A DNA stretch of 34,887 nucleotides, taken from an uncultured Microbacteriaceae bacterium (lineage in GTDB: Bacteria > Actinomycetota > Actinomycetes > Actinomycetales > Microbacteriaceae). This document shows positions 1,168 to 18,118 of the stretch, one piece after another. The position numbers and the translations under genes were made by a program. Each line of letters begins with the position of its first letter. The first letter of the stretch is position 1. Under the pieces are notes generated by a model. That model saw only the letters and a list, made by a program, of their open reading frames with translations. It did no database searches and was not told the origin of the DNA. Location of the stretch: assembly GCA_903915075.1 (NCBI GenBank), contig CAIWRM010000165.1, forward strand, positions 1 to 34,887, written 5' to 3'.

Positions 1168-2351
1168 AGATTTTTCCGTCCCTGGGTGCGGGCGAAGGAG
1201 AGCACGACACCCACCGCGACAAGACTTGAGACGAGAGCCGTGCCACCCGCAGAAACGAAGGGCAACGGCACCCCGAGGACCGGCATCAGACCCAGCACGA
1301 CGGCAATGTTCAAGAAGCCTTGACCCACGAGCCAGACCATGATGGTTCCGGAAATGATGCGCGTTGTGTCGTCTTCGGCGGCCCGAATGATGCGCAGGAA
1401 GATGACCGTGAGGGCGATAAACAGGGCAATCACAACCACGGCACCGATGAGGCCAAGCTCCTCACCCACAATGGCAAAGATGTAGTCGTTATCGGCGGCC
1501 GGCAGCCACGACCACTTCGCCCGGGAATGACCCAGCCCCACACCGAAAATTCCCCCGCTCGCCAGGGCCCACGTTCCGTGCAGCGGCTGCCAACAGGCGC
1601 CCGAATCATCAACGCAGGGGGCACCGAGAAATGACAAAATACGTGCCATCCGGTTGGGGCTGAGCACGGACATGGCAAAAACACCCAAGGCGCCGAGGCC
1701 AATCGGCACCATCATGAACTTCCAGCCCACGCCCGCAAAGTAGAGGGCCGCCAGCGTCATGAGGAACATGATGAGCACGGTACCCAGGTCGCCGCCCACG
1801 AGCACGAGTCCCACAATGATGAGGGCGGGAATAAGCGGGCGCAGCACTCGCCACGTTGCGCCGTAGCGATCCATCGCAACGGGAAGCATGATTCCCAGCC
1901 AGACGGCGAGAGCGAGCTTGAGAAGCTCTGCAGGCTGAAACGTGAAGTCTCCGATGGCCAGCCAGTTTCGGTTTCCGCCCGAATCAACGCCGAGCGGCGT
2001 GTAGACCACAAGCAGCTGAAATCCGATGCCGATGAGCACACCGATTCGCGCCCATCGACGCCAGAAACTCGGCGGCACCCGGCTTGCCAGCAGCATCAGG
2101 GGAATACCGGCTATGGCATACGCGCCCTGTCGGAGAAATCCCATAAAGAAGTTGTTGTCCGAGAGGTACGAGTCAACCGATGATGCCGAGAGCACCATGA
2201 TGAGCCCGATAAAGACGAGCAGAAGCGTCGTCCCCAGAAGCATGTAGTAGTTCGATGAATCGGCACGGAAGACGGCGCCGAGCGAGGGCCGCTTCGCACG
2301 AACGCGCTGTTCCCCCGAAGGTTTAGCTTTGGCGCGAGGCGGACTCGTCAT
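1164..2351 (-). CDS. ftsW: ftsW, septal peptidoglycan glycosyltransferase (SEDS family)
   Basis: FtsW is a polytopic SEDS protein that polymerises lipid II glycan strands at the division septum together with the transpeptidase FtsI, whose gene lies upstream in this operon. The protein has about ten hydrophobic segments. The SEDS loop WLPAADNDYIFAIVGEELG is present with its conserved acidic residue, and the last membrane region has the PLPFVSAGGTALVSSL signature. An upstream in-frame GTG at 2360 exists. I chose ATG at 2351 because AGGAGGT sits 7 nt before it, giving 395 residues. The start lies inside the end of murD (29-nt overlap) and the stop overlaps murG by 4 nt. Confidence 0.95.
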   Translation of the reverse strand: MTSPPRAKAKPSGEQRVRAKRPSLGAVFRADSSNYYMLLGTTLLLVFIGLIMVLSASSVDSYLSDNNFFMGFLRQGAYAIAGIPLMLLASRVPPSFWRRWARIGVLIGIGFQLLVVYTPLGVDSGGNRNWLAIGDFTFQPAELLKLALAVWLGIMLPVAMDRYGATWRVLRPLIPALIIVGLVLVGGDLGTVLIMFLMTLAALYFAGVGWKFMMVPIGLGALGVFAMSVLSPNRMARILSFLGAPCVDDSGACWQPLHGTWALASGGIFGVGLGHSRAKWSWLPAADNDYIFAIVGEELGLIGAVVVIALFIALTVIFLRIIRAAEDDTTRIISGTIMVWLVGQGFLNIAVVLGLMPVLGVPLPFVSAGGTALVSSLVAVGVVLSFARTQGRKNL

Positions 2352-3819
2352 CCGCCTCACCTCCTATCTGTGACAGAACCGCCTCGCGAAAGAGACGTCC
2401 ACGTTCCGCATAGTCTGCGAATTGATCCAGTGATGCCGCGGCCGGCGCCAGCAGAACAACGTCGCCCTCAACAGCCAAGGCACCGGCCGCGCGAACGGCT
2501 AACGCCATGACCTCACTAGTGTCATCCGTATCGATATCGACCACGTGGAGTTCCGGCGCGTGTCGCCCGAACGCGTCGTGGATCAGATTTCGTTCGCGAC
2601 CGACAATTACCGCTGCGCGCAGGCGAGACGCGTGACGTTCGACGAGCGCATCGATGTTGACACCCTTGAGCAGTCCGCCCACAATCCAGACGACCGACTC
2701 ATTTGCCCGCAGCGCGGCATCGGCCGCATGCGGGTTCGTGGCTTTCGAATCATCAATCCATGTCACACCGCCACGCGTCGCCACCGTCTCATAGCGGTGC
2801 TCATCCAACGTGAACGTTGACAGGGCGGCCGAGATGTTTTCCGGGGAGACGCCGTAAGAGCGCGCCAGCGCAGCCGCCGCGAGAATATCGACCACGATGT
2901 GGGGTGAGGCGAGACCGTGTTCTCGAAGCTCGTCGATCGTCGTCAACTCGAGAGCGCGGTCGCGGCGATCGTCGAGGAACGCGCGATCACACAGAATGCC
3001 GTCGACGATTCCCAGATCTGACAGTCCGGGGGTATCGAGACCGATGCCAATCGCACGGGCCCCGTCGACAACCTCGGCCTGTTCGACCATGGCCAGCGTG
3101 TGTGCGTCGGCTCGGTTGTACACGCAGGCGACACGTGTGTGGGAATACACGCGCGCCTTCGCGCCGATGTACGCCTCCATCGATCCGTGCCAGTCCAGGT
3201 GATCTTCGGCAATGTTGAGGCACACGGCCGAATAGGGTTGGAGCCCCGAGGCATAGTGCAGCTGAAAGCTTGACAGTTCAACCACGTAGACCTCGAAACC
3301 CGCTGGGTCGCGCACCGCGTCAAGAACCGACACTCCGATGTTGCCGCACGGCGCAACGCGATGCCCGGCTTCGGCCAACATTGCCGCCGTCAGTTGCGTG
3401 GTCGTTGTCTTTCCGTTTGTGCCGGTGACGAGAATCCAGTCGGCTACGCGCACCTTGTCGCGCACCCGCCACGCCAGTTCGATGTCACCCCAGATGGCGA
3501 TACCGCGCTCGTTCGCCCAGCGAACAAGCGGATGGTGCGGCGCATAGCCCGGCGAGACAATCATCACCTCGGCGTCAAAATCCGAGACTCCCGGCGGAAC
3601 GGGGTCGCTCGATGTGGTGAGGGCCACGTCGACACCGATGACCTCGCACATATTTGCGCGCAGGGAGTCGATGGCGTCGGTGGCGATGACCACGCGTGCG
3701 CCCAGTTCAGCCAACGTGTCGGCAACCGCAAAGCCTGTCACCCCAGCGCCGGCCACGAGGACACGGAGCCCCCGCCAGTCGGAGTACCAACTCGTCAGAA
3801 GGTTGAGGTCTGTGGGCAC
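2323..3819 (-). CDS. murD: murD, UDP-MurNAc-L-alanine--D-glutamate ligase
   Basis: MurD is the cytoplasmic Mur ligase that adds D-Glu to UDP-MurNAc-L-Ala using ATP. The N-terminal Rossmann-like domain shows VLVAGAGVTGFAVADTLAELG. The central ATPase domain has the P-loop GTNGKTTTT and the family block NIAEDHLDWHGSMEAY. The C-terminal domain has DEHRYE and WIDDSKATNPHAA. About 498 residues is normal for actinobacteria. The start is uncertain: GTG at 3819 lies 5 nt after the mraY stop with a weak GAGA upstream, while a GTG at 3840 would overlap mraY by 16 nt and has no visible binding site. The 3' end overlaps ftsW. Confidence 0.94.
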   Translation of the reverse strand: MPTDLNLLTSWYSDWRGLRVLVAGAGVTGFAVADTLAELGARVVIATDAIDSLRANMCEVIGVDVALTTSSDPVPPGVSDFDAEVMIVSPGYAPHHPLVRWANERGIAIWGDIELAWRVRDKVRVADWILVTGTNGKTTTTQLTAAMLAEAGHRVAPCGNIGVSVLDAVRDPAGFEVYVVELSSFQLHYASGLQPYSAVCLNIAEDHLDWHGSMEAYIGAKARVYSHTRVACVYNRADAHTLAMVEQAEVVDGARAIGIGLDTPGLSDLGIVDGILCDRAFLDDRRDRALELTTIDELREHGLASPHIVVDILAAAALARSYGVSPENISAALSTFTLDEHRYETVATRGGVTWIDDSKATNPHAADAALRANESVVWIVGGLLKGVNIDALVERHASRLRAAVIVGRERNLIHDAFGRHAPELHVVDIDTDDTSEVMALAVRAAGALAVEGDVVLLAPAAASLDQFADYAERGRLFREAVLSQIGGEADDESASRQS

Positions 3820-3824
3820 GGCGA

Positions 3825-4919
3825 CTATCTCGAAAGCCACTCGAGGTAGAACGCACCCACACCAATCGCGGCGAACAGCCCCGAGATGATCCAGAAACGC
3901 ACAACGACAGTAATCTCGGCCCAGCCTTTAATCTCGAAGTGGTGATGAATGGGGCTGGCCAACCAGATCCGCTTCCCCTTCGTCAATTTAAAGTAGGTCC
4001 TATTCATAATCACCGAGCCGGTCTCCATCACAAACAGACCCGCAAGAATAATCAACAGCAACTCGGTCTGACTCAGGATGGCGAGGGCGGCCAGCGCACC
4101 GCCGATGGCCAGCGAGCCGGTGTCGCCCATAAAAATCTTTGCCGGTGAGGTGTTCCACCAGAGGAATCCGATGAGACTTCCCGCGATGGCCGCAGCAATT
4201 ATCGCGATGTCGATGGGATCGCGCACGTCGTAACACTTGTAAGCAACGTCCGGGTCGAGGGCGGGTCGGAAGCACGACTGACTGAACTGCCAGAAGTTGA
4301 TGATGACAAACGAACCGGCAACAAAGATTGCAGAGCCGGAAGCCAAACCATCGAGCCCGTCGGCGAGATTCACGGCGTTCGAGGTGCTCGTCACCATGAT
4401 CACCACCCAGAGGGCAAACGCGATGGATCCGATCACCAGCCCCCACGACAGGAAAGAGAATTCAAAGTCGCGCAAGAAAGAGATGTGAGCTGTCGCTGGC
4501 GTCAGCCCGTTCTCATCGGGAAAGTTGATGGCAAGAAACCCAAAAGCCACCGCGACAATAACCTGTCCCAAAACCTTGAAGTATCCGTTCAGGCCAAGCG
4601 TGTTCTTGCGGTGTGTCTTGATGAAGTCATCGATGAATCCCACAAGTCCGAGACCCAACATCATGAACAGCACCAGCAGGGGCGACAGCTCAACGCTGTT
4701 GCCCGTGATCCAGCACGCAACGAAGTACCCCACCACCGTACTGAAGATGATGACGATGCCCCCCATTGTGGGGGTGCCCTTTTTTACGTGGTGCTCTTTG
4801 GGGCCGTCATCGCGGATGTACTGCCCCCAACCGATATAGCGAAAAAGCCGGGCGAACAGAGGCGTGGCGAGGAGCGACAGAAACATCGAAATCGCTCCGG
4901 CAACCATCAGGGTGATCAC
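3825..4919 (-). CDS. mraY: mraY, phospho-MurNAc-pentapeptide translocase
   Basis: MraY moves phospho-MurNAc-pentapeptide from UDP onto undecaprenyl phosphate, making lipid I. The 364-residue protein has about ten membrane helices. Diagnostic cytoplasmic loops are visible: DDGPKEHHVKKGTPTMGG near the N-terminus, FIDDFIKTHRKNTLG with the paired Asp residues, NLADGLDGLASG, KIFMGDTGSLAIGG, and PIHHHFEIKGW near the end. The start is GTG at 4919, overlapping the murF stop in a GTGA junction. This is the order expected between murF and murD. Confidence 0.96.
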   Translation of the reverse strand: MITLMVAGAISMFLSLLATPLFARLFRYIGWGQYIRDDGPKEHHVKKGTPTMGGIVIIFSTVVGYFVACWITGNSVELSPLLVLFMMLGLGLVGFIDDFIKTHRKNTLGLNGYFKVLGQVIVAVAFGFLAINFPDENGLTPATAHISFLRDFEFSFLSWGLVIGSIAFALWVVIMVTSTSNAVNLADGLDGLASGSAIFVAGSFVIINFWQFSQSCFRPALDPDVAYKCYDVRDPIDIAIIAAAIAGSLIGFLWWNTSPAKIFMGDTGSLAIGGALAALAILSQTELLLIILAGLFVMETGSVIMNRTYFKLTKGKRIWLASPIHHHFEIKGWAEITVVVRFWIISGLFAAIGVGAFYLEWLSR

Positions 4920-6325
4920 GCGAAGGTCTCCCCCAGCTTGTCGCCGAGAAAGCGCAGTTCGGCTGAATTCGAAGATTTGACGAGCACGATGTCGTTATCG
5001 CGCAAAATCGTCATGAGGTAATCGTATGCCTCGTCCGAGGTTTCGAAGTAGACGCTCTCCCCTGCCCACGAACCCTCGTTGATGCTCGAGATGAACAGTC
5101 GGCGCGCGCCGGCACCCACAACCACGAGGACGTCGACATTCAGCCGGACCACCAGAAGAGCAATGGCGTCGTGTTCCTCGCCCGAGAATTCGCCCAGTTC
5201 ACTCATCTCGCCAAGCACCGCGATGCGCCGGTTCGAGCCATCACCCAGGCGGGCAAGGGTTCGTAGCGCCGCCGCCATCGAATCCGGTGAGGCGTTGTAC
5301 GCGTCGTTGATGACGACCACACCCTTACCGCCCAACACTTCCATGCGCCAGCGTTCCGCGCGGGTGGTGGAGGCCAAGACTTCAACGACAAGCGAAAGCG
5401 GTGCCCCGAGAATTCCGGCAACCGCGGCCATCGCCAGCGCGTTCATTACGTGGTGCTCGCCGATAACGGGAAAGACCGCCCGTGACTCAGAACCATCGGC
5501 GGCTACCAACTCGAACGTGGTTCCGGACAGGGTGGTGTCAACACTCGTGGCGCGCACCTGAGCTGCCGTTCCGCGACCAAACCACACGACGGCATCGGGT
5601 GAAACGGTTGCCATGGCGGCCACGTTCGGGTCGTCGGCATTTAAAACTGCCGTGCCCCCGGGAATAATGCCGCGGACGAGTTCCGTCTTGGCGATTACGG
5701 TGCGCTCAAAACCACCGAACTCCCCCGCGTGGGCCAGCCCCACCATGAGTACGACCCCGATGTCGAGGGCCACAATATCGGTGAGCCGTGCAATGTGCCC
5801 AATGCCACTGGCGCCCAGTTCGAGAACGAGGTAGCGGGTGTCGTGCTCAACGCGCAACATGGTGAGAGGTGCCCCCACCTCGTTGTTGAAAGATGCCTTG
5901 GCGAGAACCGTCGGGCCCAATCGCTGGCACAGGGCGCCGACCAGGTTCTTGGTGGTTGTCTTGCCGTTCGACCCGGTGATGCCAATCACGGTGAGTTGTC
6001 CGCTGCGGCGCACTCTGGCCACGACTTCTCGAGCGAGATCGGCCAAGGCGACAACCACATCCGCAACAATGATGTGCGGGATATCGACCTCGGATTCCCG
6101 CTCAGCGACAACCAGAGCGGCGCCGGCATCCCGCGCACTACCGATGAAGTTCCACCCGTCGGTGAATTCTCCCGGCTTGGCAAAGAAAATGTCACCAGTA
6201 ACAAGTTCTCGTGAGTCCGTGTCGACCTGTCCACTCAGCGAAAGGCCCGCGTCGAGATTCCCGGCCGGACTGAAGAGGCGCCCGCCGATAATGTCGGCAA
6301 TTTCGCCGAGCGTCAGGGAAATCAT
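4916..6325 (-). CDS. murF: murF, UDP-MurNAc-tripeptide--D-Ala-D-Ala ligase
   Basis: MurF completes the cytoplasmic precursor by adding D-Ala-D-Ala. The 469-residue protein has the Mur ligase P-loop GITGSNGKTTTKNL near residue 114. NNEVGAPLTMLR, NDAYNASPDSMAAALRTL (nucleotide and substrate contacts) and VLGEMSELGEFSGEEHDAI in the C-terminal domain follow. Start (ATG 6325) and stop both overlap neighbours by 4 nt (ATGA with murE, GTGA with mraY), so the three proteins are probably made in a coupled way. Confidence 0.96.
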   Translation of the reverse strand: MISLTLGEIADIIGGRLFSPAGNLDAGLSLSGQVDTDSRELVTGDIFFAKPGEFTDGWNFIGSARDAGAALVVAERESEVDIPHIIVADVVVALADLAREVVARVRRSGQLTVIGITGSNGKTTTKNLVGALCQRLGPTVLAKASFNNEVGAPLTMLRVEHDTRYLVLELGASGIGHIARLTDIVALDIGVVLMVGLAHAGEFGGFERTVIAKTELVRGIIPGGTAVLNADDPNVAAMATVSPDAVVWFGRGTAAQVRATSVDTTLSGTTFELVAADGSESRAVFPVIGEHHVMNALAMAAVAGILGAPLSLVVEVLASTTRAERWRMEVLGGKGVVVINDAYNASPDSMAAALRTLARLGDGSNRRIAVLGEMSELGEFSGEEHDAIALLVVRLNVDVLVVVGAGARRLFISSINEGSWAGESVYFETSDEAYDYLMTILRDNDIVLVKSSNSAELRFLGDKLGETFA

Positions 6326-7887
6326 TGGTGCGCCTCTCTTGGTGGCCAGCCGGCCTCCCGCAGCGCAAGGCGAACATCCTCGCGGGCGTTATAGGGAATC
6401 TTGGTGCCGTTGATTTCTTGGTAGTCCTCGTGCCCTGGGCCAGCATAGAGAATCGTGTCGCCGGATTGGGCCCCCACGAGGGCAAACCTCACAGCCTCTC
6501 GCTGATCGGCAATTTCGTGAAGCTGTGCGCCGGAGTCGGCCTCAGTAGCACCGCGCATGAGGGCGGCACGGATTGCGGCGGGATCCTCAGTTCGCGGGTG
6601 AAAATCCGTAATGACCACGACATCGGCAGCCGTGGCCGCGATGCGTCCCATGTCGGCACGCTTGGTGGTGTCTCGGTCACCGTCGGCGCCAAACACCATG
6701 GTGAGTCGCCCCGGAGTGAGGGCGCGCAGCGAACTGAGTGTGCGCGCGAAGGCCTCGGGGGTGTGGCCGTAATCCACGAAAAAGGTCGGCCCGGTGTCAC
6801 CGGAGACAATCTCGGCGCGACCGGGCACAAAAACCTCAATCGTTGCCGTTGTCCCCAAACTCAATCCGATGTCGTTCAGCGAAAATCCGCTCTCCACAAG
6901 CATCACGATGGCGATCGCAGCATTGGTTGCCGAGAAATCCCCCACCAGTGGCACCGTGGCCGCAAGCGTCTCGCCGTTGGGCGCCTCGAGCACAAAAGAT
7001 GTCGACGACAGGGTGGTGGCGGTCACTCCAACGCGCCAGTCGGCAGTGACGGCATCACCGCTCGTGGACGATGCCACCGTCACAACGGGAATATCCGCTG
7101 AGTCCGCGAGGCGTCGACCCCACACGTCGTCGACGCAAATCACGCCGCGCGCTGCTCGCACGCCGTCAAACAAATCGGCCTTGGCCAGGAAGTAATCCTC
7201 CATGGTTGCGTAGTCGTCAAGGTGGTCATGGCTAAAGTTCGTAAACGCCACCACGTCAAAGTGCACGCCCGAAACGCGCTGCCGGGTGAGTGCGTGCGCT
7301 GAAACCTCCAGCACGGCGTGGGACACGCCTGCCTCAGCCATAACCGACAACAGTGCGTGGATTTCGTCGGCTTCAGGGGTGGTGAGGCCTGAGGAGAACT
7401 TAGTGCCAGCAACAATGCGTTCGGACGTCGAACTGAGTCCTGTCGAGACGCCGAGCTGTCTCAGGAGGGCGTGAAGCAGATAGGCAACGGTCGTCTTGCC
7501 GTTTGTGCCGGTGACACCGAAGGTTGTCATCGACGTCTGGTTGGTCCCGAAGATGACAGCGGCCGCCAGCCCCAAGTCTTTGCGCGGATCAGAAGAGACA
7601 AGGACCGGAAGACCGGTTCCCCCGCTGTGGCTTTCTCCCTGCGCATCGGTCACAATAGCCACGGCGCCGGCGGCCGCTGCCTGCGCCACATATTCCGCAC
7701 CGTGACGACGAGCACCCGGAACCGCGAAGAACAGGTCACCCGGAAGCACCCGGTGCGACGAACCGGTGACCCCCAACGCGACCACACTGTCGAGCGCGGA
7801 TCCTCGCCAGCCTAACTCTGTGGCGAGCGTCGACACGGGCTTCGCAGAAACTCGGCTCGGTCTTGGTGTCACGCCGTCGGCAGACAT
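6322..7887 (-). CDS. murE: murE-type Mur ligase adding the third stem-peptide residue
   Basis: MurE adds the residue-3 amino acid to UDP-MurNAc-L-Ala-D-Glu. The 521-residue protein carries the P-loop GTNGKT (127-132), TTPEADEIHALL, EVSAHAL and SHDHLDDYATMEDYFLAKADLF, the last with the Lys that is usually carbamylated. FGADGDRDTTKRADMG follows. The region that reads DNPR in meso-DAP ligases is DFHPR here (residues 428-432), and GKGHE is GPGHE. The substrate is therefore probably not plain meso-DAP. Lys, Orn, diaminobutyrate or homoserine are possible in B-type walls, but the sequence does not decide. ATG 7887 follows a GAAGGGAA binding site, 29 nt after ftsI. Confidence 0.93.
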   Translation of the reverse strand: MSADGVTPRPSRVSAKPVSTLATELGWRGSALDSVVALGVTGSSHRVLPGDLFFAVPGARRHGAEYVAQAAAAGAVAIVTDAQGESHSGGTGLPVLVSSDPRKDLGLAAAVIFGTNQTSMTTFGVTGTNGKTTVAYLLHALLRQLGVSTGLSSTSERIVAGTKFSSGLTTPEADEIHALLSVMAEAGVSHAVLEVSAHALTRQRVSGVHFDVVAFTNFSHDHLDDYATMEDYFLAKADLFDGVRAARGVICVDDVWGRRLADSADIPVVTVASSTSGDAVTADWRVGVTATTLSSTSFVLEAPNGETLAATVPLVGDFSATNAAIAIVMLVESGFSLNDIGLSLGTTATIEVFVPGRAEIVSGDTGPTFFVDYGHTPEAFARTLSSLRALTPGRLTMVFGADGDRDTTKRADMGRIAATAADVVVITDFHPRTEDPAAIRAALMRGATEADSGAQLHEIADQREAVRFALVGAQSGDTILYAGPGHEDYQEINGTKIPYNAREDVRLALREAGWPPREAHQ

Positions 7888-7916
7888 CTCATTCCCTTCA
7901 ACCGATTGTTTCGAGC

Positions 7917-9680
7917 CTAGTAGTAGTCCGCATAGTCAATCGGCTGGCCCGACGACGGCTGAATCTCCCGCGTCTTGATGATTTGTTTGATCAGGTTATT
8001 GACACCGGGAACAATCGAGGCGCTGCTGTTTGAATCGGGGGATGCGAGTGACGTCAGAACAACGAACTGGGGGTTTTCCGCCGGGAACATGGCTGCCAGA
8101 GAAACAATGAATTGATCTGAGTATCCACCCGCGCCATCAGACTGCTCTGCGGTGCCCGTTTTGGCCGCGATGCGGTAACCGGGAACAGAAAGAACCTCGC
8201 TGAGCCAGCCGTGTGTCACCACGTTCTCGAGCATGTCGACCGTGGTGCGTGCGGTCTGCGCCGAAACCACCTGCACGGGCTCAGGTAGCGACGGCTTGGC
8301 TGTGTTTCCATTCGCGTCAATGCAACTATCAACCAGGGTGACGGGCTGACGAACGCCGTCGTTCCCTATTGCGGCGTAGGCGCTGGCCATCTGGATCGAC
8401 GTGAGCGTAAGTCCCTGCCCAAAAAACATCGTGTAGAACGACTGGTTGTCCCACTGGTCCCACGACCGCAGAAGTCCGGCTGACTCACCCGGGAACTCCA
8501 CGGCGGTGGTTTCACCCAAGCCAAACTTCGCCATTGAGTCATAACGACTTTCAGGATCCAACAACGCCCCGAGTTGCGCGATTCCCGTGTTTGACGACCA
8601 GGTGAGTACGCCCTGAAGCGTCAAATTCGCCGGGTGAGGACCCCAGTCCTTGAACCGCGCACCGTTGTCAAATTCAATGAACTGGGGCGACCTCATGGGG
8701 GTGAGAGGATCTACCACCCCGGCATCCACGAGGGACGCGGCCGTAAGCGTCTTCATCGTTGACCCCGGTTCATAGGGACTGGTGAAGGCCCGCGATCCCA
8801 GATCCTCGGACGGGTAGGCATCAATGTTGTTGGGGTCAAAAGTGGGGTAGTCGACCACGGCAAGAAGCCGACCCGTTTCGACCTCCATCACAACCGTCAT
8901 TCCCCACTTCGCGTTCTCCGCGCTCGCCGTGGCCGCGAGTGTCTGTTGCGCAAACCACTGCACATCTGAATCGATGGTGAGCTTGAGCGTTGAGCCGTTC
9001 TTGGCCGCCTCGGTGACCACGGTGCTACCGGGAATGCGCACCCCGTCGGCTCCGCGGGCATACGATTGCGAACCGTTGACCCCACCCACGCACTCTTCGG
9101 AACCCAGTTCTAGCCCGGCCAGAGGAGTACCGTCGGAGCCCACATAGCCAAGGATGTTTCCGGCTACGGCACCGTTCGGGTAAGCCCGATCCGGGTTCTG
9201 TTCGAAGTAAATCCACGGGACGTCGAGCGCCTTGATTTGCGTGAAAGCGTCCACGTCGACACCCTTGGCAACATAGGCAAAGTCTGAGCTGGGGTCTTCC
9301 GCCAATGCATCATTAATGATGCTGATGATGTCGTCCGCGGACTGGCCGGTGAGCGCCCCAATTTCTTTGGCGGCCATTTGAGGCGTGATGCTAATCTCGC
9401 CCGCGTCTGTGGTTCGTGAGAACTCCTTGGCGTTCCTGGGCGAAATGGTGACATCGTATGTCATGCGCTCGGTAGCCAGCACTTTCCCTTGGCTGTCGAC
9501 GATGTCGCCACGCGTTCCATAGATCGTTTCCGGAATCGACATTTTTCCCGTCGAAGCCTCGTTATAGGCGGCCGCCCCCATAATCTGAATGTCAACCAAG
9601 CGGGCGACGAAAAATCCGGCAATGATCACGATCACCGCGAACGACATCGCTACGCGACGGCGGTTGATTCTTGTTTTCAC
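7917..9680 (-). CDS. ftsI: ftsI (PBP3), septal D,D-transpeptidase
   Basis: This class B penicillin-binding protein cross-links septal peptidoglycan made by FtsW. A short cytoplasmic N-terminus and one membrane helix (about residues 11-28) are followed by the dimerisation module with GTRGDIVDSQGKVLA (55-69). The transpeptidase domain has all three active-site motifs: STMK with Ser307 and Lys310, SSN at 362-364, and KTG at 507-509. The length of 587 residues is typical, and no PASTA domain follows. The start is GTG at 9680 with CAGGA upstream. It lies between the ftsL-like gene and murE, the canonical place. Confidence 0.96.
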   Translation of the reverse strand: MKTRINRRRVAMSFAVIVIIAGFFVARLVDIQIMGAAAYNEASTGKMSIPETIYGTRGDIVDSQGKVLATERMTYDVTISPRNAKEFSRTTDAGEISITPQMAAKEIGALTGQSADDIISIINDALAEDPSSDFAYVAKGVDVDAFTQIKALDVPWIYFEQNPDRAYPNGAVAGNILGYVGSDGTPLAGLELGSEECVGGVNGSQSYARGADGVRIPGSTVVTEAAKNGSTLKLTIDSDVQWFAQQTLAATASAENAKWGMTVVMEVETGRLLAVVDYPTFDPNNIDAYPSEDLGSRAFTSPYEPGSTMKTLTAASLVDAGVVDPLTPMRSPQFIEFDNGARFKDWGPHPANLTLQGVLTWSSNTGIAQLGALLDPESRYDSMAKFGLGETTAVEFPGESAGLLRSWDQWDNQSFYTMFFGQGLTLTSIQMASAYAAIGNDGVRQPVTLVDSCIDANGNTAKPSLPEPVQVVSAQTARTTVDMLENVVTHGWLSEVLSVPGYRIAAKTGTAEQSDGAGGYSDQFIVSLAAMFPAENPQFVVLTSLASPDSNSSASIVPGVNNLIKQIIKTREIQPSSGQPIDYADYY

Positions 9681-14829: not shown

Positions 14830-16707
14830 GTGGCACAGTCGGATTCGGATGCGATGATCGGTCGTCTTATCGACGGACGCTATCAGGTCGATTCGCGCAT
14901 CGCCCGCGGCGGCATGGCGACGGTTTATCTGGCCACTGACCTGCGACTCGAGCGACAAGTTGCCGTCAAAATCATGCACGGGCACTTGGCCGACGACAGC
15001 GCCTTTCGAATGCGCTTCATTCAGGAAGCTCGTTCGGCGGCCCGCCTAGCACACCCCAACGTGGTGAGCGTATTCGACCAGGGCCAGGACTCGGACATGG
15101 CTTACCTCGTCATGGAGTACCTGCCGGGAATCACCCTCCGCGATTTGCTCAAAGACTTTGGCAAGCTCACGCCTGAGCAGACGGTCGATGTGATGGATTC
15201 AGTGCTGCGCGGCCTCGCTGCAGCGCACGAGGCCGGAATTGTGCACCGCGACGTGAAGCCAGAAAACGTGCTCCTCGCCGACGATGGTCGGATCAAGATC
15301 GGCGACTTTGGCCTGGCTCGCGCGACAACGGCAAACACGGCCTCCGGGCAAGCCCTGTTGGGAACCATTGCCTACCTCTCCCCCGAGCTGCTCACCCGCG
15401 GTGTCGCCGACGCCCGGAGTGACATCTACGCTGCCGGCATCATGCTCTTTGAAATGCTCACCGGTGAACAGCCGTTCCAGGGCGAGCAGCCCATGCAGGT
15501 GGCCTACCAACACGCCAACGACCAGGTCCCCCTCCCCTCGGGTCGGGTACCCACCGTTCCTGATTCCCTCGACCAACTCGTGCGCTGGAGCACCGAACGC
15601 GACCCGGAGAAGCGGCCGGCGGATGCGCGACGCATGCACGAGCAGTTGCAGGCGGTAGAAAAGGAGATTCTCGGCGAAAACCCCAGCGCCTCCACTCAGC
15701 AGACCATGGTGATGCCGGCCACCACCTCCACCACAGCCGAAGTGACGCGCGTGATTCCGCGCAACAACGCGACCGGAGAGTCACCCGTTGCCTCGCTCGC
15801 ACTGCTCAGTACGCGCCGTCGGCGCCGAGGGTTGATCGTCCTGATTTCGGTGGTTCTCGTTGCGGCACTGGCAGGTGGGCTGGGGTGGTTCTTCGGAGCT
15901 GGTCCCGGCGCCCTCGTCGGTGTGCCCCGTACCGCGGGCATGTCCCCCGAGCAGGCCACCACCCTCATCACGTCGCAGGGCTTCACGACCACGACAGACG
16001 AGGTCTATTCGATTGACATCCCGGCGGGCATGGTTGTCGACACCACACCCGCCGGCGGCACCCAGGCACCTCGGGGTTCAGAAATCACCGTGCTGATTTC
16101 CTTGGGGCCCAAGATGATACCCACGCCGGTGTTTATTGGGCTCACTGAGGCGCAGGCAATCGAACTGGCCGAGAAAACCGGATTCGTCGTGGGTACGCCC
16201 ATCCTGAGGTTCTCCGGCGACGTTGCCAAGGACACTGTCATGTTGGCCCGCGGCAGTGACGGCAACGATCTTGCCGAGACCTATCCCGAGGGCGGCACTG
16301 TCGTCTTCGTCGTATCCGCCGGACCGCTGCCCGACGTCACGAACGCGCCTCAGACCGACGGGTTTGCGACGCTTCAGGCGGCCGGGCTCAAACCTGTTGC
16401 CGCCTCGGAAGAGTTCAGTGACACGATTGCCAAGGGCAACATCGTGCGCGTTGACGTGCCCGCTGAAGGGCTCTCCCCCGGGGACTCGGTGAACGTCGTG
16501 ATCTCGAAGGGCGAAGACCTCGTGGCCGTGCCAGACGTGTTGAACATGACCATTTCCGAGGCGGCTCAAGTCTTGCAGGCGGCAGGATTCGGCTACTCGT
16601 CCAACATCGCTCCCAATCTTCAACAGTATGTGCCGGTGATCACGCAAAATCCCGCCTCGGGAAGCGCCAAGCGCGGGTCAACCATCGTCATCAACGGTCC
16701 CGAGTAG
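14830..16707 (+). CDS. pknL: PknL-type transmembrane Ser/Thr protein kinase with four PASTA domains
   Basis: The 625-residue protein has a cytoplasmic Hanks-type kinase domain (about 17-275) with the glycine loop ARGGMATVY, catalytic Lys47, alpha-C Glu67, HRDVKPEN (139-146) and DFG (159-161), so it should be active. A Thr/Pro-rich juxtamembrane region (about 285-330) offers phosphorylation sites. One membrane helix (334-356) leads to four outer PASTA repeats, the last ending at the C-terminus. PASTA domains sense muropeptides or lipid II and couple wall status to phosphorylation. Corynebacterial PknL has PASTA repeats while mycobacterial PknL lacks them. The Rv2175c-like gene, a LysM gene and aroG nearby support the pknL assignment over pknB. 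Confidence 0.92.
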   Translation: MAQSDSDAMIGRLIDGRYQVDSRIARGGMATVYLATDLRLERQVAVKIMHGHLADDSAFRMRFIQEARSAARLAHPNVVSVFDQGQDSDMAYLVMEYLPGITLRDLLKDFGKLTPEQTVDVMDSVLRGLAAAHEAGIVHRDVKPENVLLADDGRIKIGDFGLARATTANTASGQALLGTIAYLSPELLTRGVADARSDIYAAGIMLFEMLTGEQPFQGEQPMQVAYQHANDQVPLPSGRVPTVPDSLDQLVRWSTERDPEKRPADARRMHEQLQAVEKEILGENPSASTQQTMVMPATTSTTAEVTRVIPRNNATGESPVASLALLSTRRRRRGLIVLISVVLVAALAGGLGWFFGAGPGALVGVPRTAGMSPEQATTLITSQGFTTTTDEVYSIDIPAGMVVDTTPAGGTQAPRGSEITVLISLGPKMIPTPVFIGLTEAQAIELAEKTGFVVGTPILRFSGDVAKDTVMLARGSDGNDLAETYPEGGTVVFVVSAGPLPDVTNAPQTDGFATLQAAGLKPVAASEEFSDTIAKGNIVRVDVPAEGLSPGDSVNVVISKGEDLVAVPDVLNMTISEAAQVLQAAGFGYSSNIAPNLQQYVPVITQNPASGSAKRGSTIVINGPE

Positions 16708-16750: not shown

Positions 16751-18118
16751 CTAGCGCCGACTGAGCTCTTCAGCAACAAGGAAGGCGAGCTCGAGAGACT
16801 GCTTGTGGTTGAGTCGCGGATCGCACAGCGACTCGTAGCGTGTGGCGAGCGTGGCCTCGTCGATGTCTTCTGACCCGCCTAAGCACTCCGTAACATCGTC
16901 GCCTGTGAGCTCAACATGAATTCCACCGGGGAAGGTTCCGGAAGCCCGGTGAGATTCAAAGAATCCCTTGACTTCGTCAACCACGTCGTCAAACCGTCGC
17001 GTCTTGAAACCATTGGGGGTGGTCATTCCGTTCCCGTGCATCGGGTCGGTGATCCAGAGTGGCGTCGCGTCGGTGGACTTGATGGCCTCAAGCAGCGGTG
17101 GCAGCGCATCGCGAATTGTTCCCGCTCCCATGCGGGTGATGAAGGTGAGGCGGCCGGGCTCGCGCTCGGGGTCGAGCTTCTCGACCAGGGCGCGGAGATC
17201 GTCCGCAGACGTTGTGGGGCCAAGTTTCACGCCAATGGGGTTGCGGACCCGTGAGAGGAAATCAACGTGCGCGCCGTCCAGATCACGCGTGCGTTCTCCA
17301 ATCCACACGAAGTGAGCGGACGTGTTGTACGGCTGCGAGGTACGCGAGTCGATGCGGGTCATCGGTCGCTCGTAGTCCATCAGCAGCGCCTCGTGACTCA
17401 CGTAGAACTCGGTGCGCTTCAGCGCTTCAAAGTCAGCACCGATTGCGGTCATGAAGTTAATCGCACGATCAATTTCCCGCGCAAGCTGTTCGTAGCGAGC
17501 GTTAATGGGGTTCTGCGCAAATCCTTTATTCCAGCTGTGCACCTCGCGCAGATCGGCGAACCCACCCTGCGTGAAGGCGCGGATGAGGTTGAGCGTGGCG
17601 GCGGCCGTGTGGTACCCGTCGATCATGCGCTGGGGGTTTGCCCGGCGCGACTCCGGGGTGAAGTCATAGCCGTTCACAATGTCACCGCGGTAGGCCGGCA
17701 GAGTCACGCCGTCGCGCGTCTCTGTGTCGCTCGAACGCGGCTTGGCGAACTGCCCGGCCATGCGACCCATCTTGATCACGGGCATCTCTGCGGCGTAGGT
17801 CAGGACAACGGCCATCTGCAGCACGGTTTTGACGCGGTTGCGAATCTGGTCCGCCGTCGCACCCGCAAAAGTCTCTGCGCAATCTCCGCCCTGGAGGAGG
17901 AAGGCGTTCCCGGCCGCCGCATCGGCCAATCGAGTCCGGAGCGTGTCTACCTCGCCGGCAAACACCAGCGGCGGGAGGCCGGCGAGCGTGGCACTCGCAC
18001 GAGTCACCTCATCGAGATCTTGCCAATCGGGCTGCTGCTTAATGGGCAGGGCGCGCCACGCCTCGAGGCCGGCAAGCATTGCGGGATCTGCCGCAGAAGC
18101 GGCCTGGGAATCACTCAT
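16751..18118 (-). CDS. aroG: class II DAHP synthase (3-deoxy-7-phosphoheptulonate synthase)
   Basis: This enzyme joins phosphoenolpyruvate and erythrose-4-phosphate in the first step of the shikimate pathway to aromatic amino acids. The 455-residue length and sequence are those of the plant-like class II type found in actinobacteria. The metal-ligand Cys80 sits in LLQGGDCAETF. KMGRMAGQFAKPRSSDTE, RGDIVNGYDF, EVHSWNKGF, HFVWIGERTR, NPIGVKLGP and ITDPMHGNGM follow. No ribosome binding site is visible before ATG 18118. Instead TAGTCT lies 7 nt upstream, only 14 nt from the plsC stop, so an internal leaderless start or coupling to plsC is possible. It converges with the kinase gene. Confidence 0.95.
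   Translation of the reverse strand: MSDSQAASAADPAMLAGLEAWRALPIKQQPDWQDLDEVTRASATLAGLPPLVFAGEVDTLRTRLADAAAGNAFLLQGGDCAETFAGATADQIRNRVKTVLQMAVVLTYAAEMPVIKMGRMAGQFAKPRSSDTETRDGVTLPAYRGDIVNGYDFTPESRRANPQRMIDGYHTAAATLNLIRAFTQGGFADLREVHSWNKGFAQNPINARYEQLAREIDRAINFMTAIGADFEALKRTEFYVSHEALLMDYERPMTRIDSRTSQPYNTSAHFVWIGERTRDLDGAHVDFLSRVRNPIGVKLGPTTSADDLRALVEKLDPEREPGRLTFITRMGAGTIRDALPPLLEAIKSTDATPLWITDPMHGNGMTTPNGFKTRRFDDVVDEVKGFFESHRASGTFPGGIHVELTGDDVTECLGGSEDIDEATLATRYESLCDPRLNHKQSLELAFLVAEELSRR

Follow-up and report, generated by a model that had tools for sequence, protein, structure and literature searches.

FHPR/GPGHE pocket code in the MurE of an uncultured Microbacteriaceae bacterium: a probable L-2,4-diaminobutyrate-adding enzyme, and a cysteine-less MurT/GatD pair as candidate bridge ligase of B-type walls

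The DNA analysed here (hereafter the window, 34,887 nucleotides, 61.2% G+C) is one contig of a draft genome of an uncultured Microbacteriaceae bacterium, which amounts to 1.84 Mb in 266 contigs and is 89.9% complete with 7.2% contamination. It carries a division and cell-wall cluster in which murE is accompanied by murG, ftsW, murD, mraY, murF, a penicillin-binding protein gene and rsmH. The murE gene (6322..7887, reverse strand) encodes 521 amino acids and is adjoined by murF (4916..6325; TIGR01143, 347.6 bits, cut-off 288.6); mraY (3825..4919; TIGR00445, 302.4 bits, cut-off 192.05), murD (2323..3840; TIGR01087, 377.9 bits, cut-off 211.95) and, upstream of murE, a gene for an FtsI-type penicillin-binding protein (7917..9680; several penicillin-binding protein models, all below cut-off) lie on the same strand. 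Close to the cluster are also genes for a PASTA-domain protein kinase (14830-16707, forward strand) and a class-II DAHP synthase (16751-18118, reverse strand).

With 414.1 bits against the TIGR01085 model for UDP-MurNAc-tripeptide synthetases (curated cut-off 257.3), the product is a member of the MurE family. The first-pass annotation had described all catalytic motifs as intact, and TGTNGKT (the ATP-binding loop, aa 126; 7492..7512, reverse strand), DHLD (aa 221) and GDRD (aa 403) were indeed found. The AlphaFold2 model (mean pLDDT 94.7) has the full-length MurE fold, the best solved match being 2xja_C (Z 46.3, rmsd 2.4, 493 residues aligned). From these motifs and this fold, the protein is most likely a working enzyme. 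A normal DNPR paralogue elsewhere in the genome is unlikely, since the other murE-related matches in a search of the 89.9% complete genome were the adjoining MurF and one FolC.

The acceptor loop reads DFHPR at aa 428-432 (6592..6606, reverse strand), which the same annotation had taken as a replacement of DNPR. The sequence is real, but the register has to be corrected: in an ungapped alignment with two mycobacterial MurEs of known structure, T-D-F-H-P-R-x-E-D-P lies over T-D-D-N-P-R-D-E-D-P, which rules out an inserted residue. F429-H430-P431-R432 thus occupy the DNPR columns, the leading D is the conserved residue ahead of them, and FHPR differs from DNPR by an exchange of D for F and one of N for H, with P and R retained. 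Translation and alignment also bear out GPGHE in place of GKGHE (aa 483-487; 6427..6441, reverse strand), with the lysine changed to P484 and E487 kept. The DNPR characteristic of meso-diaminopimelate (meso-DAP) adding MurEs is accordingly replaced by FHPR, and the enzyme falls narrowly below the cut-off of the NCBIfam DAP-ligase equivalog NF001124 (467.4 bits against 476) and well below that of the lysine-adding model NF010628 (252.6 bits against 536).

Compared with the meso-DAP-adding MurE of Mycobacterium tuberculosis (2wtz, 2xja), the protein is alike in fold and length (42% identity to 2xja_C) and shares the ATP loop, GDRD, P431, R432 and E487, whereas FHPR and GPGHE stand for DNPR and GKGHE. 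The retention of R432, P431 and E487, together with the score near the DAP-type model, is what would be expected if the pocket still took meso-DAP and the F and H were neutral drift. Against this, the DAP-type relatives in the order all have DNPR (22 sequences), FHPR was seen only in Microbacteriaceae and walls that lack DAP in the third position are, to our knowledge, a known trait of the family. One Microbacterium is reported as DAP-negative in the description cited (PMC11319209). We consider a meso-DAP pocket very unlikely.

The distribution of the motif was followed through the family and the order. A MurE-like match occurs in 149 of 150 Microbacteriaceae genomes surveyed, and pocket codes were counted in 110 MurE-like sequences (seven of them extra copies) from 103 of the 150 genomes, omitting L002 and L003, which are not separate MurEs. 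DNPR was present in none of the 110. The commonest codes were HHPR/GPGHQ (38) and FHPR/GPGHE (31, the window included), followed by YHPR/GPGHE (8) and YNPR/GPGHE (5), while the remaining 28 sequences were spread over 20 codes. The occurrence of FHPR/GPGHE in 31 and of YHPR/GPGHE in 8 of the 110 makes the motif more than a chance event. For comparison, 50 sequences representing 18 further families of the order (family f4 left out) were hand-picked from the results of a single search in which an Arthrobacter MurE was the query. These showed only five codes (DDPH/GRGHE 23, DNPR/GKGHE 20, DNPR/GKGAE 2, ENPR/GKGHE 4 and ENPR/GKGNE 1), and the G-P-G of GPGHE, found in 98 of the 110 Microbacteriaceae MurEs, was in none of them. 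At the DNA level the pattern D[F/Y]HPRxED was found in 13 of the 396 genomes of the order, each of them among the 34 from Microbacteriaceae and none among the 362 outside, and the reversed control gave no match in any of the results listed. The DFHPR motif is therefore real, ordinary within Microbacteriaceae and informative, and the absence of DNPR from the family together with that of the pattern outside it supports the proposal, made when the locus was first read, of a third residue other than meso-DAP in a B-type wall.

Lysine is the wall amino acid of Arthrobacter and Isoptericola, ornithine that of Actinotalea, homoserine that of Curtobacterium and meso-DAP that of Brachybacterium. Among 80 MurE loci of named genomes, the DNPR columns held DNPR in 66 (Brachybacterium and Streptomyces included), HHPR in four, FHPR in three and DDPH in three, with YHPR, ENPR, YNPR and DNSR once each. 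DDPH/GRGHE was found in Arthrobacter, Isoptericola and Actinomycetales JB111, ENPR/GKGHE in Actinotalea, and HHPR/GPGHQ in Microbacterium and in the Rhodoluna and Salinibacterium MAGs. Curtobacterium has HHPR/GPGHQ in its division-cluster MurE (L197); L119 (HHPR/GPGLT), considered as the main enzyme of this genus, was rejected as a second copy. FHPR/GPGHE was restricted to Agromyces, Cryobacterium and Herbiconiux, separate from the 66 DNPR loci, and their MurEs share the code and Tyr373 with the window MurE at 51.5 to 54.1% identity (tblastn).

The alignment with species of known wall type, which had been suggested as a check on the motif, thus places the FHPR loci in genera with 2,4-diaminobutyrate (DAB) in the wall. 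DAB is reported for Agromyces silvae (PMC11294650), DAB in a B2gamma wall for Cryobacterium (PMC7033078), and B2gamma with both D- and L-DAB for Herbiconiux (PMC10011130). One of these MurEs (L121) comes from Herbiconiux CPCC 203407 itself, whose wall contains DAB, the species description naming only Ala, Glu and Gly (PMC10011130). The match between code and wall is at the genus level, and at the strain level only for Herbiconiux. In the genomes and literature searched, DFHPR was not met in any species with a proven meso-DAP wall. Comparison of this kind makes it very likely that the window MurE adds a residue other than meso-DAP. That this residue is L-DAB, in a B-type wall, is the reading we consider most likely, with somewhat better than an even chance. 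We infer the substrate, the pocket geometry and the B-type wall of the window organism from comparison and from the wall types of related genera. Lysine, ornithine, DAB and homoserine had all been named as candidates. DAB suits the code better than the other three, since homoserine is associated with HHPR/GPGHQ, and the relatives outside the family that have lysine or ornithine walls carry DDPH/GRGHE and ENPR/GKGxE.

A structural rationale can be proposed from the enzymes of known specificity. In the L-lysine-adding MurE of Staphylococcus aureus (4c12), which has the same fold as the window MurE (Z 43.5, rmsd 2.0, 482 residues), Asp406, the first letter of DNPA, and Glu460 are described as holding the lysine amine, and in E. 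coli MurE the Asn and Arg (Arg416) of DNPR as binding the far carboxylate of DAP (PMC3829189). The window enzyme has Phe in place of Asp406, but its Glu comes from the loop region that also provides the Glu for the side-chain amine in S. aureus (PMC3829189). In the proposed mechanism, the acceptor would be UDP-MurNAc-Gly(or Ala)-D-Glu. The far half of DAP or lysine lies in one end of the pocket, and F429 (Asp in the DAP and lysine enzymes) together with H430 would make that end shorter. E487, which GPGHE shares with GKGHE, would grip the side-chain amine of a short diamino acid, and P484 would stand in for the Lys or Arg of GKGHE and GRGHE. In B-type walls the cross-link starts from the alpha-carboxyl of D-Glu, and the pocket would be free to change because residue 3 is then relieved of providing the cross-linking amine. 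Two observations count against this assignment, namely the retention of R432, the equivalent of the E. coli arginine that binds the DAP carboxylate, which speaks against L-DAB, and the existence of five F/Y429 sequences without E487, which speaks against the code. Moreover, the S. aureus A409R variant is reported to have gained no DAP activity (PMC3829189), so specificity must depend on more than the motif. No link between a MurE motif and B-type walls was found in the open-licence literature searched on MurE and Microbacteriaceae.

In the sister class HHPR/GPGHQ a Gln takes the place of the acid, which would suit a neutral hydroxyl and predicts L-homoserine. Homoserine walls do occur within the family, as in Rhodoluna lacicola, for which DAB (as D-DAB), homoserine, Mur-Gly and D-Ala-D-Dab are reported (PMC4156110), and a pocket of this kind could be imagined for the window MurE as well. 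However, it is the division-cluster MurEs of Rhodoluna and of Curtobacterium, the latter a homoserine-walled genus, that have HHPR/GPGHQ and lack the putative amine-holding acid, whereas the window MurE retains its Glu; we give homoserine as its substrate only a slight chance.

The pocket residues vary together. For columns 429 and 487 of the 110 sequences, 46 combine F or Y with E, 48 combine H with a residue other than E, five have F or Y but lack E, the pairing of H with E does not occur, and 11 have another residue at 429. A third column follows the classes, as position 373 is Tyr in 51 of 51 F/Y sequences with GPGHE and Phe, Ser or Ile in 53 of 53 H-class sequences; the window MurE has Tyr373 (in VDYGH; codon at 6769..6771, reverse strand, as computed from the open reading frame) and, with F429 and GPGHE, belongs to the FHPR/GPGHE class. 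In a tree of 172 MurEs from which the motif columns and the divergent L042, L044, L046, L047 and L048 had been removed, the window MurE groups with its genus-mates L004 and L005 as an early branch of the Microbacteriaceae clade, apart from the Agromyces, Cryobacterium and Herbiconiux enzymes. Two F/Y-E sequences, L065 and L097, are nested inside the H-Q clade. At 373, 429 and 487, and also at 491 and 497, they agree with the E class, but they retain the Q-class state at 481, 318, 354 and 134, so they look like true switches of the pocket set rather than misplaced rows. The tree requires three independent changes per trait, and since there are only three, significance is out of reach of the sign test (median p 0.5, range 0.25 to 1); the coupling of 373, 429 and 487 is thus suggestive, not significant. 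Opposite codes are seen within one genus, with YQPR/GPGHE in L065 (genome G075) and HHPR/GPGHQ in L084 (genome G138).

The sister group of the Microbacteriaceae MurE clade in the same tree is formed by the MurEs of the lysine-walled Micrococcales Arthrobacter (L120) and Isoptericola (L125), which have DDPH/GRGHE where the window MurE has FHPR/GPGHE. As another reading, FHPR/GPGHE could mark a pocket that accepts lysine or ornithine for a B-type wall, or a permissive one in which position 3 tracks metabolite pools instead of the code. Several observations fit such a pocket: S. aureus MurE is described as depending on a high cytoplasmic lysine level (PMC3829189), walls with lysine and ornithine are on record for Microbacteriaceae (PMC7033078, PMC10757982), and the window genome (89.9% complete) has no canonical DAB aminotransferase scoring above the TIGR00709 cut-off, its best class-III aminotransferase being a GabT. 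They are set against the DDPH/GRGHE and ENPR/GKGxE codes of the lysine- and ornithine-walled relatives outside the family and against the DAB walls of the named FHPR genera, and we regard a lysine, ornithine or permissive pocket as rather unlikely.

Nor is the absence of TIGR00709 decisive against L-DAB, because Herbiconiux CPCC 203407 and Cryobacterium shii lack it too. The model exceeds its cut-off in just 28 of 150 Microbacteriaceae genomes. Among genomes that could be assigned to a MurE class, it does so in 12 of 46 of the E class and 3 of 37 of the Q class (Fisher p 0.045, with no correction for relatedness), and it is present in Agromyces and Zimmermannella and also in the HHPR Salinibacterium MAG. 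Herbiconiux CPCC 203407 must have another route to DAB, since the wall contains DAB according to the description (PMC10011130) and the genome has no TIGR00709, and the presence of this model was rejected as a test for DAB. The pocket code is also not yet one-to-one with the wall residue, because lysine and ornithine are reported from Salinibacterium walls (PMC7033078) against HHPR/GPGHQ in the Salinibacterium MAG, and DAB together with ornithine from Cryobacterium inferilacus (PMC12113805).

MurE copies off the division cluster were observed in several genomes (L033 and L034 in G045, L035 and L036 in G116, L038 in G073, L040 in G147, L042 in G068, and L119), G045 and G116 having three MurEs each. 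Their codes are HHPR/GPGHQ, HHPR/GPGDT, YNPR/GHGHR, HHSR/GPGSY, FPPG/GPEHQ and HHPR/GPGLT. In some rare codes the normal Glu is replaced by Arg, Lys or Gln, as in L038, L050 and L110 (YNPR/GHGHR), L104 and L107 (HHPR/GLAGK) and L100 and L103 (HHSR/GLASQ), and such pockets may prefer a third residue that is acidic or neutral. The MurEs of G059 (L048) and G145 (L047) are far off (~30% identity, DDVH/GKGHE), and G128, a member of the genus to which G059 belongs, has YHPR/GPGHE (L016); a gene replacement or a mis-binned contig is possible for the divergent pair.

As the B-type cross-link occupies the alpha-carboxyl of D-Glu, amidation of this group by MurT/GatD was expected to be missing. A search of 198 order genomes with the MurT C-terminal domain gave 65 clear matches outside Microbacteriaceae (65 to 112 bits) and six weak ones (28 to 38 bits) among the 14 Microbacteriaceae genomes listed, the window genome included. 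On another contig of the same genome (C124, locus L261), a sigma factor gene is followed on the reverse strand by a MurT-like gene (6780-8111; 91 bits to the NCBIfam MurT model, cut-off 800), a GatD-like gene (6052-6783; 33 bits to the NCBIfam GatD model, cut-off 400) and two alanine-racemase-like genes (5323-6045 and 4190-5326), and genome G106 has the same order. The pair has in common with S. aureus MurT/GatD (6gs2) the gene order MurT-GatD, an intact ATP-binding loop GSNGKST and a likeness, DMSWIYD, near the region of MurT-D349. In S. aureus, C94 and H189 of GatD form a catalytic triad with MurT-D349 (PMC6113224), whereas the GatD of C124 has Gly at both Cys94 and His189 and so lacks these catalytic residues.

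The loss is common in the family. A MurT-like gene was found in 111 of 150 Microbacteriaceae genomes at E 1e-20, with no match at this threshold in the other 39, and the named Microbacterium SD291 gave none at 1e-8. Among 40 aligned Microbacteriaceae GatDs (the 30 best-scoring loci and 11 chosen regions less one duplicate, from the 111 genomes with a match; G123 and G032 are weak GatD matches, and the named genomes L118 and L132 are G112 and G136), 37 lack the Cys and 19 the His. In other families both residues are kept in 11 of 11 GatDs (12 loci). Among named genomes, Cys is lost in eight of eight Microbacteriaceae and kept in three of three others (Arthrobacter, Brachybacterium and Streptomyces). 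By strict word matching, 31 of 33 loci have an intact MurT ATP loop. The GatDs of G014, G061 and G003 retain both Cys and His, the MurEs of G014 and G061 being of the F/Y class with GPGHE. Racemase-like genes accompany the pair at some loci only, and no GatD-like gene was present in the regions fetched around L065 (G075) and L084 (G138).

Judged on sequence, the cysteine-less GatD/MurT pair is more surprising than the MurE variant. We propose that the pair attaches the B-type bridge to D-Glu. As a candidate bridge ligase it has much to recommend it, because MurT should still be able to activate the D-Glu carboxyl, a GatD of this kind would make no ammonia, and the family builds its bridge at that very carboxyl. 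MurT, with ATP, would still activate the alpha-carboxyl, and with GatD devoid of its ammonia-making Cys an amino acid (D-DAB, D-Orn, D-Lys or Gly) would be joined instead; the two alanine-racemase-like genes after the C124 pair could supply the D-amino acid. Which enzyme joins the bridge to D-Glu in B-type walls is an old question to which no answer was found in the literature searched, and such a role for a cysteine-less MurT/GatD was likewise not found in the open-licence literature searched. Tentatively, and with somewhat less than an even chance, we suggest that the B-type wall of the family arose through two linked changes that can both be seen in the window genome, a recoding of MurE (FHPR/GPGHE for DAB, HHPR/GPGHQ for homoserine) and a conversion of MurT/GatD into a bridge ligase.

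If the assignment of L-DAB to FHPR/GPGHE is right, the acceptance of DAB and homoserine by MurE would have an explanation, and some three MurE residues would suffice to tell the third residue of the wall peptide with no need for wall chemistry. This would help to describe uncultured members, the window organism among them, of this large family of soil, water and plants. The MurT/GatD lead makes the question of the B-type bridge enzyme testable with purified proteins.
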